Part shown: positions 11,849 to 58,302 of the stretch, piece after piece | Layout: every line of letters begins with the position of its first letter | Numbering within the stretch: position 1 is the stretch's first letter | Assembly: GCA_037783415.1 (NCBI GenBank) | Contig: JAZGTN010000190.1 | Coordinates: 186,001-250,000, forward strand | Direction of reading: 5' to 3' | Length of the DNA: 64,000 nt | Source of the DNA: Leptasterias polaris | Taxonomy: Eukaryota; Echinodermata; Asteroidea; Forcipulatida; Asteriidae | Made by a program: the position numbers and the translations under genes | Notes under the pieces: generated by a model | Seen by the model: the letters and a program-made list of their open reading frames with translations, nothing else | Database searches by the model: none | Told to the model about the DNA's origin: nothing

Positions 11849-12763
11849 TATAGGGTCATTCCGTGCCAAATCACCTAAAATTCTGAAAAGTTGGGCAGGC
11901 TCCGTCTCAGATTTGTCTATATTTTTTTTCAAACATTCCCCTATGGGTGCCATGAACACACACCACATTTTAGAAACCTACTTAAAAAGGTTGTTTCTTG
12001 GCATTTTTACAGCCGGACCCACATTCAGACTCCTGCCAAATACCCATCAAAGGTGTGATTAGTCTATCCTTATACCAGGTCACACACATATACACCTAGT
12101 TTATAACTAAATGCAATACAAAAGCAATCGGACATTTCACTTAGGCACGCCAGATTGTTTTCCCACGTACTTTTTGACACCGCGCATGCGCACTTACTTA
12201 CTCCTGAATAATCCATGAATATTAATGAGGTTAGGGCTAGGGTTAAGGTTAGGGTTAGGGTTAGGGTTAGGGTTAGGGTTAGGGTTAGGGTCAGGGTTAT
12301 GATTTTGAATGTCTCCTTTTCTCGGTTCAAATATACATGATAATACACTACACGCGTACACAGCGTCCACTTACAGGCGGGTGTCAGAAAGGTCGTAGGA
12401 AAAACATATCGCCTTAGGCACTATGGGGTCTCAAAATGACGAAAAATCATTCCGCGGGCTAATATGTCAGTTTTTAAGACCTAGGCCTATGCCTTCATAT
12501 AAACATATCCTATGCTACTTTTGACAGTAGATTCAGTTGATGGGGGTACCAGGTACTCTGTATATTAATTTGCAGTTACATACAATTATGTAGGGGCGGG
12601 GCTTAAATTTTTTAGGGGGATTATATCTCAGAAATTTTAAGGAGTTGGATTCTAAAATTTGGTGTGTGTTCATGAAACCCATAGGGGAATGTTTGAACAA
12701 TTTGTAGAATCTGAAACGGAGCTTGCCAACCCACCAGGTGAGTTGGCACAGAATGACCCTATA
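11849..12763. mobile_element. ~915-bp inverted-repeat element carrying a telomere-like array
   Basis: The ends are TATAGGGTCATTCCGTGCCA (left) and the inverted GGCACAGAATGACCCTATA (right). Homology continues inward for about 130 bp on each side, including matching blocks TTCAAACATTCCCCTATGGG and CCCATAGGGGAATGTTTGAA. The interior has no transposase and contains the TTAGGG array at 12229-12298. Short ORFs across the arms are by-products of the repeats. Confidence 0.7.
12229..12298 (+). repeat. Interstitial TTAGGG telomeric array, ~10 units
   Basis: About 70 bp of GGTTAG units, eight or so perfect and in register, edged by degenerate units (GGGCTAGGG, AAGGTTAGG, GGGTCAGGG). TTAGGG is the canonical telomere repeat of deuterostomes, so this is an interstitial telomeric sequence and not a chromosome end. 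It forces an artefactual LTLTLT reading frame on the minus strand. Confidence 0.9.
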
Positions 12764-26168: not shown

Positions 26169-27632
26169 AGAAGATAAGTGTAAGTTTCCAACCATTACAA
26201 ATCCGATATTCTACAGATTAGAGAAGAGTGCATAACGAGGGTTCATTTGGAAAATACTTTCTGTAAACCACGCACGGCCGTTCCGCAGTATTAAAATGTG
26301 CACGCCCTCAGTGTTCACGCTGCGTCCAGTTCATTCTGACAAGTTACGCGCGCGCGACATTTGCAAGTTTATGTTTACACCTGAAAAAGGTCACGTTTTG
26401 TGATTTGCATATCACCATTTCCTTAAATTTCATTGGTCGCAGGAATGTTTTGAATAAAAATAGTGATAATTCTCATGAATATTCATCTGATTAATCCTTA
26501 CTTGGATCTCCGAGGTCAATTCAGCCATGTGAGCTGCAATCCAGGGGCCACTGCGTACGGGGTGTCATGGTGTCGTCGTTTTACTATTTTGGCGTGCGAA
26601 TGACGTGCAAAAGAGTGTTATTTTATGGAAATAAGAGTTTTCATCAACAAAATCTGACCACAGATGTTTAAAAGAAGCATACTCCAAGCCAATCAGGATA
26701 AAAGAAGGTAAAAGACAGCGGGATGATTTGTGATATTAGAGATTTTGTTTGGTTATTTTCCAACGTGTGAAAAATGATCTTTCGTTTATTATGTACATTC
26801 AATACACTATAATATACAGAGGCTACGTAGAGTTTGCATACGTTCATTTTGTACATCGTTGTGTCAGTGTCGGGATATTTTCATGACTGATTTCAAACTA
26901 GCCTAGGCCCTATGATTTAAGTTGTTAGGCCTACTGCATCTGTGTTTTCAAAACAATTTTTTACTAGGGTATATATTATAGGCCTACTTTTTTGAATGAA
27001 AACTGGAAAAAATTTCATTCTACACGTACATACAATCCTCCGATCCATCATGCCAACCCAAATGCAAATAATAATATACTAAATCGTGATTTGATTCTGG
27101 TCCCTGGGTGTCTGGAATAACACGTTTCTTGAAGTGAACTGTTACGTCCTGTGGTGGTATGGCTTAATTAATGGACATTATGTTTTTTTATTGGGATTGC
27201 TGATAATTAAACATTTTCTTATTTTCTCGAAATTACACAGCCACTGTCGAACTCGAACCCTGCCAGTGCCAGCTTACCAAAGCAGAGAGGACTATAAGTA
27301 GGCCTACATGTGAAGGTGAGTGACTATTCCAAGTAAAATTGTAACGCTACACTAGTCCGACTTGTATTTTCATTTTGAAGCCTTTAAACTCAGCTGTGCT
27401 ATTCATAATTTTGGAAATTAAAAGTCTTGCTGTGCATGTACCCCCCCCCCCCCCCCCCTTTGGCAAATTTGCATGCATATTATTTACACTATCTTGTCAT
27501 CATGTATCATTCAGCTGTTGAAAACAATTGTTTAAGTTTGATGTGATCATGATATGATGTATTTGCACACAAAATATTATAGCGTAGTAAATTAATACCC
27601 AACTTGAACCTTGCTTAAAAACAATATTTGTG
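26169..27632. other. Non-genic flank of the RAG1-like gene
   Basis: No coding frame is seen. It holds a C18 run at 27441-27458. On the minus strand, TATAGTCCTCTCTGCTTTGG...GGGTTCGAGTT near 27250-27295 weakly resembles a tRNA-derived head. I found no terminal inverted repeat here matching the far side of the gene at 29.7-31 kb, including no RSS-like CACAGTG heptamer in a paired position. Confidence 0.4.
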
Positions 27633-29654
27633 TTATTCTTCTATTTTTGCTTTTTTTCTACATGTGATGACTTTGGCTTGTACTTCTGGAGTGGTTGACA
27701 AGTGGTGACGTCGCATTGTTGTCATGAGACGCTGTACAACACGACCTGTCCTGTTGAACTCGGTGTGTATGAGCTCGCCTCCTTGCTCATTGAGGAGGCC
27801 AAACCCAACACCAAACCTGGACAGCTGTTCAACGGCGTGGTTCTCCAATAAGTGCATCTTTGGTGTGATGCTGGATTCAGGGAAACTCTCTCGGTAAGAT
27901 GCCATGAAGACCTTGATACACATATCTGCAAAAAAAAAAAAAACATCATTACTCTGGACTGGTATTAACATTGGTACTTCACAACAAAAATTAAATGGAG
28001 TTGAGTAATTACCAATGCGGTTCAAGTCATCTGGTGATAATGCCCTCCTATGGTTTATCGCAAAGTGTGCATCGGCAAATTTTAGGAAAATATCCTCGAA
28101 AGTAGACCCCAATTTAGCTGCTTCTCTGATGAGTTCTTGCTGATGTTTCAGTGGAATGTCATCGTTGGATACACTTTGAAGGATTCTGGGGGGTCCGCTT
28201 TTGGTGGATTTTCGAGGAGATTTGATTGAGCTGTGAGCAATTTTCTGCACAAACAATGGTTGTAAAGATGAGATGTAAAAAATGGATTGTCATAATTTGT
28301 GTTAGTATAAAACAGCATCATTGAATACAAAATGTACTATTTGTAAATTTGTAAATTTTGACTTAGTAATGTTTAAATGTGTTTACGTTTGGGTGTTTGT
28401 GTTGGCATTAAGCAGAAATTATGTGTTTGATGTTCTATTTCAGAAGCTAAATCCTAACCATCAATATTTTTATTATTATGAAAATGTTTATTAAGTACAT
28501 AATTTATTGATGGCTGTGGTATGCGAATGATGTAAATTTGACTTGTACACTTGTAAAAAGTATTTAAAGAAAATAATAATTAATAACAATGCAAGTTGTT
28601 TTACAATACATACCCGGCCTGGTGTTTTCAAGCGCACATCGTTTCCCTTGTGTGCACTAAGCTTTAACCAAGTCCAGCGATCACTGACTTCTTCAATTTC
28701 TGCTGGGATAGGTGTGCCTCTGCTGTGTTCCACTGCAACTTGCTTGAGAAGGTTTGCAGCCTTTATAATCTCATCTCTGTGTATTTTAACTGTGCTTGTC
28801 TCGGGATATGTTTGGATGGGGTTTGCTGATTTTGAACACAAGTCACAGTTACATGATGGTGTTTTATCCTTTTCTGGACAAACATGGTCAGCCATTTTGG
28901 ACAGTTTACCTATTGTTCCGCATACTGTGCAAACTGTTGTCAATGTGCTAAGCTGAAGCCTCAAAATTCGGGGTGATGATGTGACGTTGTCATGATTCAC
29001 ACTAACTTGACATACAGGGCAGGGAACGGTGTGACTGCCTCGAAAAACGAACCACTGCTCTAAACATGAAGAACAGTAGTTGTGTTCGCATTGAGTTTGC
29101 ACAGAAGGGGAGCTCAGGATACACTGGCATATTGCACATATGAAAATTGTCTCCACTGCCTTCTCTGTGCCAAGAATGTCGAGATTTGGGGGAACTGTGT
29201 ACGCAGAATCATTAGTCGCAAAGTTAAACAGATAACTTTTCTCACAGTCCTGTTTATTGAGGCTCGGTGGATTAATGTTCGGAAGACCTTTTCCAGTACG
29301 ATTTCTCTTAACAGGGCGACCCCCCTTAAGTACTTTTCTGTACTGCTCACATGTGGTGCATGTTCCAGATCTTGAGTGAGTCGGCCATTCGTCAGTAGTT
29401 TTTTGTGTAGCAGATGAATATTCAAATTCCCTAGTTTGTTGTTTACAATGTGTCAAATTACGCACACACCTCCAGCATAATTTATTCGGATGCCTTGTTG
29501 AATCATCGAGCCAGATATTTATACTGTACAGTATTTCTAATTCCTTTCTGTATTGTGCACAATCCACTGCCACATATGAATTATTTGTATTTAATTTTGT
29601 GCACACACGACACAACTTATCAAGTGCTAATTGATGAAACTGCAATGTATTCAT
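27633..29654 (-). CDS. RAG1-like zinc/RING protein with reduced transposase end, 3 exons
   Basis: Three minus-strand exons, 29654-28614, 28244-28013 and 27925-27633, join through GT-AG introns in phases 0 and 1. They give 521 residues with no internal stop. Zinc pairs: C15/C18, C60/C63 and C99/C102 (with W90 and H93). Next comes a C3HC4 RING (C173, C176, C189, H191, C194, C197, C212, C215), then a C2HC finger (C242, C245, H257, C259). The order and spacing, including HPxKLCWRC and a basic stretch after C102, follow the RAG1 N-terminal region. Residues 445-454 (TPKMHLLENH) and 471-475 (EQGGE) resemble the last catalytic-glutamate region of RAG1/Transib/Chapaev-type DDE transposases. Only about 185 residues separate the finger from that motif, so the DDE aspartate segment is missing. 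It is probably inactive as a transposase alone. It may be a reduced transposon protein or a host-co-opted gene, perhaps with DNA- or ubiquitin-related roles (inference). Start: the first ATG of the open frame. Confidence 0.75.
27926..28012 (-). other. Intron 2 of the RAG1-like gene (87 nt, phase 1, frame-neutral)
   Basis: GTAATT at the 5' end, and a 13-T pyrimidine tract followed by GCAG at the 3' end. The length is a multiple of three and the intron has no stop, so retention would insert 29 residues rich in F and V. The splice restores an Asp codon at residue 425. The long T tract and short length are typical of a genuine small intron. Confidence 0.65.
28245..28613 (-). other. Intron 1 of the RAG1-like gene (369 nt, phase 0)
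   Basis: The donor is CCGG|GTATGT and the acceptor is TTTGTGCAG|AAAA on the minus strand. The frame continues exactly from Arg347 to Lys348. Exon 1 reads on past the donor for 40 more codons in a hydrophobic, poor-quality extension before a stop, which supports splicing. Confidence 0.7.
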
Positions 29655-31045
29655 ATCTGGAAAACTTCCTGTAAAGATGTCATCGTTGCAATAAAGTGTT
29701 TACCTTGAAACAGTGAATCACAGTAGTATTGCAGTCTGTTTGTTCAACACATCTTTATTTGAGAGTCTGTGTTTGACGATCGCGATACGAACGTAAACAA
29801 CATACTGAGTAGTAGTCATAGAGCTATGGTAGTAGTACATAGATCTTTTTACTACACTAATCTACGTTTTGCATCCCGCGCGCTATTGACGTGTTGGCTG
29901 TGGAGGTGCGCGGTGCACGTCTGCGACTGTGTGTACATTTTAATAGGAGTTTTACGTGATTTTTTGTTCATCTCCGTGAAAAACACACTCTTAAAAATCT
30001 ATTTCTTGTAAATATGCCCGCTGTCTTGTTTTATTCGTTTGGGCTTTAGGGAAAACAAGTATATTTTTTTCAAGAAATTGGCTCCACTTTATCGGGAAAA
30101 CCCAGAATTTTTATTTTGGGACATTTTAGAATCAACAGTTTCTCACTATCTTCGGGAATTCACGTCCAGTTACCAGGGTGGAAAAACCCTCATATTTTAT
30201 ATTTTTCCTCACACATTATTACTCTCAATAAATAAAAGTGATCGATTGAAAGTGTTTATGATAAATTATGAACAAATAACTCGAAAATCAATTGGTTATG
30301 TATGGACAATTCAATGTAATTATCGTTTTTTTATTCAACGTTAACGTTGAGCCTCCGCCATTTTGGAAACGGATTGTTGTTTCATTACTGGAGGAAACGT
30401 TTGTTCGTTGCGAAATCTTTTAATGCGCTGTGTTAATGGGCTTGATACGGCCGTGCACGGTAGCAAAATACAGTCTGCTTTGCACCCAAACCGTCTCTCG
30501 TTGTCCACTACTCCTCACTGTGCTATGTCGTTACCTTTTAGCATTTATCAAACGTCCAAGCATAAAGTACTTGACTTTCAACTTGTGAATTATTATTAAG
30601 AAAAGATGCATTTACCCTTCTTGTAAGAAATAGAAGGAGCTGAACTTTCAATTGATAAACGATCGCTACTTTTTATGATTTATTGAATATTGCCCCCGGA
30701 TATAATTACAACAAAAAGTGCCATTATTAAGTTTAGAAAACGTGATGGGGGGGGGGGGGGGGGCATCTTAATTTGATTACACACAATTCACAGAGTGAAT
30801 ACAATTTTTCATTTTCAAAACTGACCAGCTGTCTGAACTGAAAGGAACTGTTTTTTGTTCGTGTATCGCAGCAGATGGTCTGACCTTTTGTCTATTGTTA
30901 GTTATGACCTCTGATTGCAATTTTCCTGTGAATAATGTAACGTATAAGTCCCAATTCTATCCCAGAATGACCCGGGGCAGGAAAGAGGGGTGGGGCTGGG
31001 TCCAAGTCCTCACTTACTGTTGTGCTGCAGTCGGCAAATGAAGCA
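29655..31045. other. Upstream flank of the RAG1-like gene; no other gene seen
   Basis: It may contain the promoter on the minus strand, but no TATA box or initiator can be assigned by eye. It holds a G17 run at 30747-30763. Plus-strand ORFs here (for example 29769-30344) lack family features. CACTGTG occurs once (near 30514) without a partner. Confidence 0.4.
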
Positions 31046-31049
31046 TCGA

Positions 31050-31805
31050 TTCAAATATATTTTAGGTACAGGGTTGTGCCTACATTTGGTAACAAGGTTG
31101 TGGCTACATCTAGGTACGGGTTGTGGGCTTGTGGCTAGATTTGGTAACAGGGTTGTGGCGACGTTTGGGTACAGGGTTGTGGCTAAATTCGGGTACGGTA
31201 TTGGGGCTACATTGAGGTACAGGGTTGTGGCTACATTTGGGTACAAGGTTATGGCTACATTTTGGTCGGGTTTGTGGCTAGATTTAGGTACGGGTTGTGG
31301 CTATATTTGGGTACAGGGTTGTGGCTAGATTAAGGCACGGAGAAGGGATACATTACGGTTCAGGCTTGTGGCGACATTTGGGTACAGGGTTTTGGCTTGG
31401 TTAAGTATCAGGGTTGTGGCTAGATTCAGGTGCGGAGATGGGGCTACACTACGGTACAGGGTTGTGGCTACATTTGGGTACAGGGTTGTAGCTAGATTCA
31501 GGTACGGAGAGGGGCTACATTACGGTACAGGTTTGTGGCTAGATTTTGTAACATGGTTGTGCTAGATTTAGGTACGGAGTTGGGGCTACATTTAAGTACA
31601 GCCTTGCGGCTACTTTTGGGTACAGGGTTATGGCTGGATTTTGGAACAGGTGTGTGGGTACATTCAGAGAGTTGTGGGTACATTCAGGTACAGGTTTGTG
31701 GGTATATTTGGGTACATGATTGTGGCTACAGGGTTTTGGTTTCATTGACACACATGGTAGTGACCGCACTTAGGTACATGATTGTAGCTTCAATAGAGCT
31801 AGGCC
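31050..31805 (+). repeat. Minisatellite, 24-bp unit, about 30 copies
   Basis: The consensus is GGTTGTGGCTACATTTGGGTACAG, with variants at the TAC/TAG (CTACATT/CTAGATT) and a few 1-3-bp indels. 24 bp equals eight codons, so each frame gives an octapeptide-like reading, but indels break every frame. Not coding. Confidence 0.85.
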
Positions 31806-35640: not shown

Positions 35641-35644
35641 TATT

Positions 35645-36652
35645 GGCTACGACCGCGAAAATGCACACCAGAATTAAAATTGAATTGAATTGAAGTTCTT
35701 GGCTACGACCGTGAAAATGCACACCAGAATTAAAATTGAATTGAATTGAAGTTCTTGGCTACGACCGCGAAAATGCACACCAGAATTAAAATTGAATTGA
35801 ATTGAAGTTCTTGGCTACGACCGTGAAAATGCACACCAGAATTAAAATTGAATTGAATTAAAGTTCTTGGCTACGACCGTGAAAATGCACACCAGAATTA
35901 AAATTGAATTGAATTGAAGTTCTTGGCTACGACCGCGAAAATACACACCAGAATTAAAATTGAATTGAATTGAAGTTCTTGGCTACGACCGTGAAAATGC
36001 ACACCAGAATTAAAATTGAATTGAATTGAAGTTCTTGGCTACGACCGCGAAAATGCACACCAGAATTAAAATTGAATTGAATTGAAGTTCTTGGCTACGA
36101 CCGTGAAAATGCACACCAGAATTAAAATTGAATTGAATTAAAGTTCTTGGCTACGACCGTGAAAATGCACACCAGAATTAAAATTGAATTGAATTAAAGT
36201 TCTTGGCTACGACCGTGAAAATGCACACCAGAATTAAAATTGAATTGAATTGAAGTTCTTGGCTACGACCGCGAAAATGCACACCATAATTAAAATTGAA
36301 TTGAATTGAAGTTCTTGGCTACGACCGTGAAAATGCACACCAGAATTAAAATTGAATTGAATTAAAGTTCTTGGCTACGACCGTGAAAATGCACACCAGA
36401 ATTAAAATTGAATTGAATTAAAGTTCTTGGCTACGACCGTGAAAATGCACACCAGAATTAAAATTGAATTGAATTAAAGTTCTTGGCTACGACCGTGAAA
36501 ATGCACACCAGAATTAAAATTGAATTGAATTGAAGTTCTTGGCTACGACCGTGAAAATGCACACCAGAATTAAAATTGAATTGAATTGAAGTTCTTGGCT
36601 ACGACCGTGAAAATGCACACCAGAATTAAAATTAAATTGAATTGAAGTTCTT
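35645..36652 (+). repeat. 56-bp satellite, 18 units
   Basis: The unit is GGCTACGACCGTGAAAATGC, ACACCAGAATTAAAATTGAA, TTGAATTGAAGTTCTT. Eighteen units fit exactly in 1008 bp with no length variation. Variation is almost limited to GACCG(C/T)GAAA and ATT(G/A)AAGTT, which occur in changing combinations. That pattern is expected from recent unequal exchange or gene conversion. Each unit contains GAATTGAATTGAA. No arrays of identical short repeats with unique spacers, so not CRISPR-like. Confidence 0.95.
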
Positions 36653-36867
36653 GTTGAACATAAACAATGAGGGATATGTTTCATTACTTGTTTGTTGGGA
36701 TTATTCACTAAACTTATGTAGACCGCATATAATAGAAATAACAGGTCCCGGCTTGGATTGTCCACAAAGACAATTTCTTTGACCATTGTGACCTCTCTCG
36801 CCAATGAATATCAAGAAATAGAGGCCATCAACAATAGTCGATTTGATGGAAGATCAACATAAATCAG

Positions 36868-38030: not shown

Positions 38031-38039
38031 TTTGACCAC

Positions 38040-40378
38040 CTGGACGCGAACTTGGATTTTGATTCAACCACCTGGACTCGGACTTTGACACAAATTCGAC
38101 CATCTGGACTTGGACTTGGATTGGATTCGACCACCTGGACTTGGACTTGGATTGGATTCGACCACCTGGACTTGGACTTGGATTGGATTCGACCACCTGG
38201 ACTTGGACTTGGATTGGATTCGACCATCTGGACTGGGACTTGGATTGGATTCGACCACCTGGACTTGGACTTGGATTGGATTCGACCATCTGGACTTGGA
38301 CTTGGATTGGATTCGACCACCTGGACTTGGACTTGGATTTGAATTCGACCACCTGGACTTGGACTTGGATTGGACTCGACCATCTGGACTTGGACTTGGA
38401 TTGGATTCTACCACCTGGATTTGGACTTGGATTGGACTCTACCATCTGGACTTGAACTTGGATTGGATTATACCACCTGGATTTGGACTTGGATTGGATT
38501 CGACCATCTGGACTTGGACTTGGATTATATTCTACCACTTGGACTTGGACTTGGATTGGATTCGACCATCTGGACTTAGACTTGGATTGGATTCGACCAC
38601 CTGGACTTCTTGGACTTGGATTTGAATTCGACCACCTGGACTTGGACTTGGATTTGGATTGGACTCTACCATCTGGACTTGGACTTGGATTGGATTCTAC
38701 CACCTGGATTTGGACTTGGATTGGATTCGACCATCTGGACTTGAACTTGGATTGGATTCTACCACCTGGATTTGGACTTGGATTGAATTCGACCACCTGG
38801 ACTTGGACTTGGATTTGAATTCGACCACCTGAACTTGGACTTGGATTGGACTCGACCATCTGGACTTGGACTTGGATTGGATTCTACCACCTGGATTTGG
38901 ACTTGGATTGAATTCGACCATCTGGACTTGGACTTTGATTGGATTCGACCACCTGGACTTGGACTTGGATTTGAATTCGACCACCTGGACTTGGACTTGG
39001 ATTGGACTCGACCATCTGGACTTGGACTTGGATTGGATTCTACCACCTGGATTTGGACTTGGATTGGACTCTACCATCTGGACTTGGACTTGGATTGGAT
39101 TCTACCACCTGGATTTGGACTTGGATTGGATTCGACCATCTGGACTTGAACTTGGATTGGATTCTACCACCTGGATTTGGACTTGGATTGAATTCGACCA
39201 CCTGGACTTGGACTTGGATTTGAATTCGACCACCTGGACTTGGACTTGGATTGAACTCGACCATCTGGACTTGGACTTGGATTGGATTCTACCACCTGGA
39301 TTTGGACTTGGATTGGATTCTACCACCTGGATTTGGACTTGGATTGAATTCGACCACCTGGACTTGGACTTGGATTGGATTCGACCATCTGGACTTGGAC
39401 TTGGATTTGAATTCGACCACCTGGACTTGGACTTGGATTGGATTCTACCACCTGGATTTGGACTTGGATTGAATTCGACCACCTGGACTTGGACTTGGAT
39501 TGGATTCGACCATCTGGACTTGGACTTGGATTGAATTCGACCACCTGGACTTGGACTTGGATTTGAATTCGACCACCTGGACTTGGACTTGGATTGGACT
39601 CGACCATCTGGACTTGGACTTGGATTGGATTCGACCACCTGGATTTGGACTTGCATTGGATTAGACCATCTGGACTTGAACTTGGATTGGATTCTACCAC
39701 CTGGATTTGGACTTGGATTGAATTCGACCACCTGGACTTGGACTTGGATTTTAATTCGACCACCTGGACTTGGACTTGGATTCGGATTCGACCATCTGGA
39801 TTTGGACTTGGATTGGACTCGACCACCTGGACTTGGACTTGGATTGAATTCGACCACCTGGACTTGGACTTGAATTGGATTCTACCACCTGGACTTGGAC
39901 TTGGATTTGAATTCGACCACCTGGATTTGGACTTGGATTGGATACGACCACCTGGACTTGAACTTGGATTGGATTCGACCATCTGGACTTGGACTTGGAT
40001 TGGACTCGACCATCTGGACTCGGACTTGGATTGGATACGACCACCTGGACTTGGACTTGGATTGAATTCAACCACCTGGACTTGGACTTGGATTGGATTC
40101 GACCATCTGGACTTGGACTTGGATTGGTTTCGACCATCTGGACTTGGTCTTGGATTTGAATTCGACCATCTGGACTTGGACTTGGATTGGACTCGACCAT
40201 CTGGACTCGGACTTGGATTGGATACGACCACCTGGACTTGGACTTGGATTGGATTCAACCACCTGGACTTGGACTTGGATTGGATTCGACCATCTGGACT
40301 TGGACTTGGATTGGTTTCGACCATCTGGACTTGGTCTTGGATTTGAATTTGACCACATGGACTTGGACTTCGATGTTT
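38040..40378 (+). repeat. 31-bp minisatellite, roughly 70-75 units
   Basis: The base unit is CGACCACCTGGACTTGGACT followed by TGGATTGGATT. Variants are CGACCATCTGG, CTACCACCTGGATTTGG, TGGATTTGAATT and TGGATTGAATT, arranged in recurring blocks of several units. The unit has no stop codon in any of six frames and 31 is not a multiple of three, so long ORFs appear in all frames on both strands (up to 334 codons). They are artefacts. Each plus-strand unit has four spaced GG pairs. Edges are diverged (38030-38095 and 40340-40378). Confidence 0.95.
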
Positions 40379-53169: not shown

Positions 53170-53545
53170 CTCAATCTATTGGACAATGAGTACATCATGA
53201 GTACCATCTATGCCTTCTAGCATGGTATTCGTTATTCGCTGAAAGATTTCAGGGGCACTTTTGATTCCGAATGGTAGTCTTGACTTGACTTGACTCGTAG
53301 TCGAGTTCTATCTGTAGGAACCCTGACTTGGCATCTATCACAGATAAAATCTTGGCACCTGACATCGATGCGACTACTTCTTTTACTGCGGGGGTTGGAT
53401 AATGTTCACGGCGTATTGCTTTGTTGAGATCTTTTGGGTCTGTACATATGCATACTTTCCCATTCTTCACCACGGTTACCATTGAACTCACCCAGTCGGT
53501 TGGCTCTGTGACTTCCACAATGTTTCTTTCAAGGCCTCCGTAGAT
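53170..53545 (-). pseudogene. Ty3/Gypsy-type reverse transcriptase fragment
   Basis: On the minus strand, frame one carries the start of a Gypsy-type RT domain: a TEPTDWVSSMV motif, then CTDPKDLNKAI and IDAKSGFLQIELD. It then meets a deletion near 53280. Homology resumes in another frame with LPFGIKSAPEIFQR before decaying near 53170, where the catalytic aspartate pair would lie. This is an isolated fragment without LTRs, protease or integrase nearby. Inactive; described only. Confidence 0.85.
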
Positions 53546-54865
53546 TTTTAATTTTGTGCAGGGATCGGTATAAAAGCCGAATTTTGAAGAAAGACTCTTG
53601 TATTTATTTCACTGTGATGAGTTTCTTGCTCTTCAGTTGTTCAAAATTAGATTTACTGAGTTTTACTATATTCACGGTGATGATTGCAGGCTATCTAACA
53701 ATATGCGCGTTGGCATGGCTCTCCTTCCCTTTGAGGCTTTGTACATAATATCTTGTGAAATGGACAGCATGTGCCTATGGTCTTCTTCACACACCTTTAC
53801 AAAACATTCTTCTTCGGGTTCAGTTGAGGCACCGGTAACCCAAGCTAAGAAATTGTAGAGCTTCACAGGTACCAGTTTTTCTGCAGCGACCATTGTCAGG
53901 TTGGCTGAACTGGGGGACCATGGCAATGTTGTTGGTGGAAGTTTTGCAATTTCCTCCTTTAAGTCCAGAGCACATGAATGGCGTTCTCTCAATGTACTGT
54001 GCGAATAAGTAGTGTGCTGTCATCTGTGTCAGTGTCCGTGTCTGTACATGATGAGGTCTCACTTTCAACACTATCATTGAGCAGCCTTTCAGTACTTAGA
54101 GTGTCAACATAAACAAAGTCACTGCGAGTCTTCCTGGATGGGTGCAGGAAGCGTAGCTGGGGATATTTCATTTTCAGACGCCGCTTTAGACTCCATGTCT
54201 TATATGTTTTAGCATCCTTTCCTTCAACAGACTTGACAGTTTTCAGGAACAGTTGCTTCAACTTGGTGAGTCGAAAGACATTGTTCTTTTCCATAAGTTC
54301 TTTCTCAACAACATCTTGGCAAAATACCTCGAAGGATGGAGTGTACAAAAACAGATGATCAGTGTTACTACTGCCCTTTTGTGTATATTGCTTGCCTGTT
54401 GTTAGGAATCGTGTGTATTCCCTGTAACACGAACTGTGGTACTGTACCTCAATTGCTACACAGTCCTTGTTGTTGATTTGTGTCAACAAGTTGTTATATT
54501 TTTTCTGTTTCGCAGCTTTCAGTAGTAGGCCTCCATTAATTAACTCACAGCGAGTCAATCTTTCTGGTAGTGACGTTCCTCTGCCTTTACTTTTGGAGTA
54601 CCTCTTCCCACGACAAACAACACATACTGGAGGAAGAACATGTGCAGACCTTGCCGACTGTGTGTCAATCCCATCATGTGACCGCAGCCCTCTTCTTTGT
54701 CTTTTTGCATATGGCTCATCACTCACACTTGCATCATGGGACTCTGTCTCTCCTGAAACAAGAAAAGTTGCATCATAAACATGTGTTTGTATTTTAGCTG
54801 TTATTTTTACAGTTTTATTTTACAGGTGTATGCCTAGCTCTAGTGATTTTTATTTTATGTTTATG

Positions 54866-57937: not shown

Positions 57938-58302
57938 GTAACAATAATAATAATAATAATAACCTTTCTTATATAGCGCATTTCACAATAACGTCTCAAT
58001 GCGCTTTACATTAGTGCCCTGGTCATTGGGCCAATAACATTCCTTTTTAATCTTTCTCAGCTCCCTGGGGAGTATACAGCCTGTGCTGCAATATATGCGC
58101 TACTAGGCTAAATCAATCACAAGAACCATCTCTGCCCTCACAGGTACCCATTTTACCCCTGGGTGGAGAGAAGCAATCATAGTTAAGTGTCTTGCTCAGG
58201 GACACAAGTGTCACGACCGGGACTCGAACCCACACTCTGCTGAACAGAAACACCAGAGCTTGAGTTCGGTGCTCTTAACCGCTCGGCCACGACACGCCAT
58301 CG
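57938..58302 (-). repeat. tRNA-Leu-like SINE, full-length, minus strand
   Basis: This is the best copy in the window. On the minus strand it runs GGCGTGTCGTGGCCGAGCGG, TTAAGAGCACCGAACTCAAG, CTCTGGTGTTTCTGTTCAGC, B box GGGTTCGAGTCCCGG, then CACTTGTGTCCCTGAGCAAG, a body with TATATTGCAGCACAGGCTG, GCGCATTGAGACGTTATTGT and a final (ATT)n tail (57944-57961 on the plus strand). Both boxes look intact. Confidence 0.85.

Follow-up and report, generated by a model that had tools for sequence, protein, structure and literature searches.

A RAG1-headed gene of the sea star Leptasterias polaris very probably belongs to an internally deleted Chapaev-type transposon

Introduction

The origin and first role of the non-core N-terminal half of RAG1 matter to our understanding of how V(D)J recombination evolved, and a RAG1-like gene in an invertebrate genome raises the question of what kind of sequence carries it. 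We followed up such a gene in a stretch of 64,000 nucleotides of the Leptasterias polaris genome (hereafter the window), in which the original prediction had placed an intact, spliced RAG1-like gene of uncommon reduced layout that would be either transposon-borne or co-opted. Our analysis indicates that the feature is very probably a non-autonomous copy, shortened by internal deletion, of a cut-and-paste DNA transposon of the Chapaev (CMC) type. The longer sisters of this copy (7.03 kb for those retrieved with both ends) appear to encode a single transposase in which a RAG1-like zinc head is joined to a DDE-type core. Among the matches listed in the open-licence literature, no paper dealt with this element.

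Results

The window gene has three exons and a RAG1-like head

The gene is encoded on the minus strand, a detail that the original prediction had left unstated, and joining its three exons yields the 521 stop-free codons that had been predicted, with both introns of the GT-AG type. Exon 1 (28614..29654, minus strand, with the ATG at 29654) encodes residues 1-347, including the RAG1-like head; exon 2 of this deleted form (28013..28244, minus strand) fuses the start of transposase exon 2 in frame with the end of transposase exon 9; and the last exon (exon 3; 27633..27925, minus strand) encodes the final part of the transposase, including the motifs H(4)H and NEQGGE, and contains the stop codon. 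Splicing is thus predicted from the sequence. Because all ten outside relatives of exon 1 have GRV at the position at which exon 1 ends, the first donor site is supported and is probably conserved.

The predicted arrangement of cysteines and histidines was located in full. Three CxxC motifs at residues 15-102 (29349..29612, minus strand), comprising C15/C18, C60/C63 and C99/C102 with a basic stretch after the third, correspond to the Chapa or RAG1 N-terminal zinc region and are invariant or nearly so in an alignment of window exon 1 with 10 relatives (A1, 11 members). They are followed by a C3HC4 RING at residues 173-215 (29010..29138, minus strand; Pfam PF00097, 28.1 bits with a cut-off of 21), which was found in every one of the 11 members, and by a zinc finger at residues 242-259 (28878..28931, minus strand), whose C242, C245, H257 and C259 are invariant in A1. 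The head is matched by 10 proteins elsewhere with 37-49% identity.

We searched a profile built from A1 against 177,635 distinct PDB sequences. The top match was full-length RAG1 (E = 8.3e-14, 54.7 bits), with profile positions 5-264 aligned to RAG1 residues 101-382, such that the three-CxxC region aligns from RAG1 residue 101 onward, whereas the best non-RAG1 chain reached an E-value of 1.5e-8 (37.5 bits). Outside the RING, a 137-residue RAG1 fragment was matched at profile positions 5-103 (E = 1.1e-6). Seven of the 11 members, excluding the window sequence itself, matched the Pfam family RAG1_imp_bd (PF12560) at E <= 0.01, with a best value of 3.1e-9, and P0004, one of three members examined singly, exceeded the curated cut-off of the RAG1 Pfam family.

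Taken alone, the window protein would suggest a RING protein with no kinship to RAG1: Pfam reports the RING, PF12560 is not reached, and against the PDB a weak RAG1 match (1rmd, E = 0.031) ranks under many RING proteins. The lead of RAG1 across nearly the whole profile, the fragment matched outside the RING and the RAG1_imp_bd hits among the relatives argue against this reading, which we regard as highly improbable. Judged by these profiles, the N-terminal half of the window gene is a true relative of the RAG1 N-terminus, which bears out the family membership originally proposed; the profile comparison, suggested at the time as a way of telling RAG1 from an unrelated RING family, came down on the side of RAG1.

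The gene lies in a repeated element with transposon ends

The gene is contained in a whole, internally deleted transposon copy of 4183 bp (26273..30455, gene on the minus strand), the borders of which are common to 14 other copies. The terminal inverted repeat is short (9 bp), with CACGGCCGT at 26273..26281, the 3' end of the element, and ACGGCCGTG at 30447..30455, its 5' end, and the element has the CAC...GTG termini that are a trait of Chapaev (CMC) transposons. It is flanked by a target site duplication, CACG, with the left copy at 26269..26272 and the right copy at 30456..30459.

Flanks were inspected for the 18 elements of which both ends were available. Seventeen of them start with CACGGCCGT and end with ACGGCCGTG, the exception being L009 with an altered 3' end, and 16 are bounded by exact 4-bp target duplications, a length in the 3-4 bp range typical of Chapaev (CMC) transposons; L013 has none, and 5 extra bases precede the duplication of L009. 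Exact matches to the 29 bases at the 5' end of the element number 63 across the genome, and the reversed control has none. Thirteen of the 14 other copies that share the borders of the window copy (26273 and 30455) are 4155-4183 bp long, and the fourteenth, L024, measures 5574 bp because a nested insertion adds an extra 1.4 kb in intron 1. By eye, the nested piece resembles the end of a non-LTR retrotransposon.

A count of paralogues, which had been proposed as a check, returned at least 118 matches to exon 1 across the 630-Mb, 334-contig genome, including diverged families with 37-57% identity, and 58 copies of the deletion junction described below. At least 32 of the exon 1 matches are full-length and free of stops with 98-100% protein identity and, with the 10 outside proteins, they place the window gene and its cysteine plan far above chance. 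Exon 1 is split between two frames at no fewer than 33 genomic sites, and two more matches (C26 and C58:1773672) contain a stop. Among these copies there may be duplicates that stem from the assembly or from segmental duplication.

An open reading frame with introns would also be expected of a host gene of transposon origin that was retained for a cellular function, but such a gene would hardly be present as 58 nearly identical copies of one deletion, with ends and target duplications. A domesticated RAG1-like gene was therefore rejected on copy number and transposon ends, and we consider a host gene extremely unlikely. Of the two origins first offered for the gene, the transposon-borne one is borne out by the ends, the duplications and the copies, and the co-opted one is contradicted by the near-identical copies.

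The insertion sites of L009 and L015 lie within a few bases of each other in different copies of a single repeat, and their comparison reveals the target sequence. The same repeat is also found on one side of L013, and it may be a favoured target. The window element is adjoined by a degenerate tandem repeat (31067-31730) with periods of 24, 71 and 237 bp.

Elsewhere in the window, we observed a 56-bp tandem repeat of 18 copies with 97% matches (35643-36653), a large 31/187-bp tandem array in which several frames are open (38034-40374) and an interstitial, telomere-like GGTTAG repeat of 11.8 copies (12229-12299). By eye, frames on the minus strand at 53249-54819 resemble a piece of a retroelement reverse transcriptase and a cysteine-containing mobile-element protein. 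ARAGORN called two tRNA-Leu(CAA) on the minus strand (1957-2044 and 58208-58298), which are either genes or tRNA-derived repeats.

Full-length sisters encode a putative Chapaev-type transposase

Four copies (L012, L020, L021 and L023) have an extra 2.85 kb at the site that corresponds to window positions 28187-28194, and translation showed that this sequence codes for the central part of the transposase, missing from the window form. The alternative that the longer copies had gained a nested element in exon 2, with a duplication of 8 bp, was dropped on this ground. Joining ten exons produced a complete frame of 974-981 amino acids in five copies (L012, 981; L021, 981; L023, 980; L045, 974; L046, 981). 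For three of these, L012, L021 and L023, both ends were fetched, and the elements measure 7028-7033 bp and have the duplications TATC, ATGT and ATAT; for L045 and L046, the 5' ends are known. L020 passes into other sequence within exon 9.

The full-length protein contains, in this order, GGDKGG (489), FGDYE (559), CLYC (580), SLH (649), HLLENH (902) and NEQGGE (923), and thus the DDE-type core pattern D, D, C(2)C, LH, H(4)H, E, which is also kept in relatives; the catalytic residues are putative assignments from these motifs. The pattern C(2)C, LH, H(4)H is given for Chapaev and CMC elements in the available parts of PMC4079192 and PMC12730594. Pfam DUF1280 was detected in the full-length protein (E = 4.6e-18), and P0016 and P0017 of Asterias amurensis match it over 99% of its length, at 46%.

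At least two further, diverged families with a head and a core were observed in the same genome, represented by L027 (C58:7425000-7434900) and L028 (C46:58000-67900), both of which match the head and then the core in the same order as the window family. In the tree, the L028 head clusters with an A. amurensis protein called RAG1-like (support 100/99). Synonymous sites were saturated in the dN/dS comparison between families, which yielded no value.

A RAG1-like N-terminal half and CAC at the ends would likewise fit a transposon, or the remains of one, of the RAGL/ProtoRAG (Transib) type. However, the target duplications are 4 bp long here and 5 bp long for RAGL, according to the available part of PMC7204232; a profile of 6 cores searched against the PDB matched no RAG1 or Transib chain up to an E-value of 10, returning a single irrelevant chain (E = 6.2); and a reading of the open reading frames of the window element gave no second long sense frame. 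We consider this assignment very unlikely and retain that to a Chapaev-type element.

The window form arose by internal deletion and spread

Compared with its 7-kb sisters, the window form has lost exactly 2840 bp, including both putative catalytic aspartates. The junction (28187..28194, minus strand) is ambiguous as to its exact point within a short repeat. Another 21 bp, retained in all seven copies of other types that were checked, are missing from the last exon near 27737. Both deletions have their breakpoints in short repeats and both preserve the frame. The shortened layout is explained by these two deletions from the 7-kb element, so that the description of the gene as intact, meaning complete, is not supported and its reduced layout is a product of deletion rather than a design of its own; apparently complete copies persist in the genome. 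The C-terminal part of the window protein has H(4)H and the last acidic motif and lacks the first two aspartates and C(2)C. Because the first two catalytic aspartates, as assigned from the motifs, are absent, the 521-amino acid product, which would keep head and tail, cannot itself be the enzyme.

The 2840-bp junction was found at 58 genomic places, with none for the reversed control. Exon 1 is unbroken in 25 of these copies and split or frameshifted in 33; one extra A is the cause in the three split copies that were fetched, and the remaining 30 show the same pattern. The uncut exon 2 site occurs at 8 places, namely the five complete frames, C58:1773224 with a stop in exon 1, a broken-off C35 copy and C312. 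Three more deletions arose independently, in C312 (L043, about 2.0 kb), in C26 (L044, about 2.7 kb) and in C102 (L047), in which 232 bp are left at one end and 1.3 kb at the opposite end. Because the 33 copies with a broken head have spread as far as the 25 unbroken ones, the shortened protein is dispensable in cis for spread, and it is a natural inference that the deleted copies were moved in trans by the full-length enzyme.

The 15 deleted copies differ by a mean of 2.95 substitutions per pair (0-11) in about 4.2 kb, and the three full-length copies show 1, 7 and 8 pairwise differences in 7 kb. Because copies differ so little, activity of the family is recent and perhaps current. Among the 15 deleted copies, 14 sites are variable and one of them is coding, with coding sequence making up 37% of the length (p = 0.024, for sites that share a tree and in a set in which 33 copies are frameshifted), a deficit that counts as a weak hint of a role for the shortened protein.

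Truncated P-element products are able to restrain transposase. The 521-amino acid protein could similarly have a function of its own and act in trans to hold back the full-length enzyme, for instance through RING/zinc pairing, a role that is compatible with the deletion of a Chapaev-type element and that we regard as unlikely. The unbroken exon 1 in 25 of the 58 deleted copies, the frame kept by both deletions, the scarcity of coding variation, and the pairing of the ZDD and DNA binding of the central non-core domain reported for mouse RAG1 in the available part of PMC3124419 are in its favour. Against it, the copies with a frameshifted head, the majority, have spread at least as far, near identity alone would keep frames open without selection, and the p-value remains a hint for sites on a shared tree.

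Discussion

In the mechanism that we propose, the full-length enzyme would be made from the ten-exon copies, would recognise the CAC...GTG ends, cut the element out and insert it with a 4-bp stagger, and would mobilise deleted copies in trans. The central non-core domain of mouse RAG1 (residues 87-217) binds zinc and double-stranded DNA, and the ZDD (265-380) pairs and contains a RING that is an E3 ligase, as stated in the portion of PMC3124419 available to us. By analogy, zinc binding, DNA binding and self-pairing would be expected of the transposase head, which may help the enzyme to pair and to hold DNA.

The more exciting reading of the locus, a co-opted or newly designed reduced RAG1, is thereby removed. 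The locus also shows one way in which elements coding for a RAG1-N-like protein with an incomplete core can originate: a complete Chapaev-type transposon loses internal sequence. With five apparently complete frames, clean ends, target duplications and scant divergence, the role of the head could be tested by a transposition assay.

The element resembles RAGL/ProtoRAG transposons in its RAG1-type N-terminal zinc motifs, and it differs from them in that they have 5-bp duplications and a RAG2L partner (PMC7204232, available part), whereas the duplications here are 4 bp long and no partner was seen among the frames of the window element and the ten exons of the 7-kb copies. A genome search for the RAG2 family (PF03089) gave no match, while its controls also gave none. 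The RING/ZDD is reported to be absent from echinoderm RAG1L in the same part of PMC7204232, and a weakly conserved ZDD region is mentioned for sea urchin RAG1L in the accessible text of PMC9885083; therefore, the RING is no sharp divider from RAGL. With vertebrate RAG1, the element shares the non-core N-terminal half, as the alignment to RAG1 residues 101-382 indicates. No likeness of the core to that of RAG1 was seen by sequence, and RAG1 is a single-copy immune gene.

N-RAG-TP of Aplysia californica was reportedly described by Panchin and Moroz in 2008. Like the window element, it is a transposon coding for a RAG1-N-like protein without the full core (PMC8355894, available part); N-RAG-TP is known to us by description, and for the window element the full-length parent is present in the same genome. 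As a guess, N-RAG-TP may have arisen likewise by internal deletion. A bolder proposal, which we consider unlikely, is that the deleted copies spread a catalytically dead, RAG1-headed protein that pairs with the full-length transposase and holds it back; the RAG1-type N-terminal half would in that case have started as a Chapaev self-control module separable from the core, with N-RAG-TP as a second case.

Internal deletion products of Chapaev elements are known, and those described in the available part of PMC4079192 are, like the window form, direct deletion products of a full-length element that were amplified. They are MITEs, whereas the window form is 4.2 kb long and has kept a frame of 521 codons.

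The closest likeness is to the two subgroups of Chapaev transposons with a Chapa domain and a RING finger (Kapitonov and Koonin 2015, PMC4411706, in the part available to us); the accessible part of PMC3630058 contains no link between Chapaev and RING. Shared with these transposons are the CAC...GTG ends, the 4-bp target duplication and a transposase that combines a RAG1-like, RING-bearing zinc head with a DDE core containing C(2)C, LH and H(4)H. In contrast to them, the window form is a deletion product, and by exon 1 identity, which is at most 49% to relatives in the tree, it represents a family of its own. Judged by motifs, ends and duplications, the element would be a new, recently active member of the Chapaev transposons, in which the combination of Chapa domain and RING was already known from the same part of PMC4411706.
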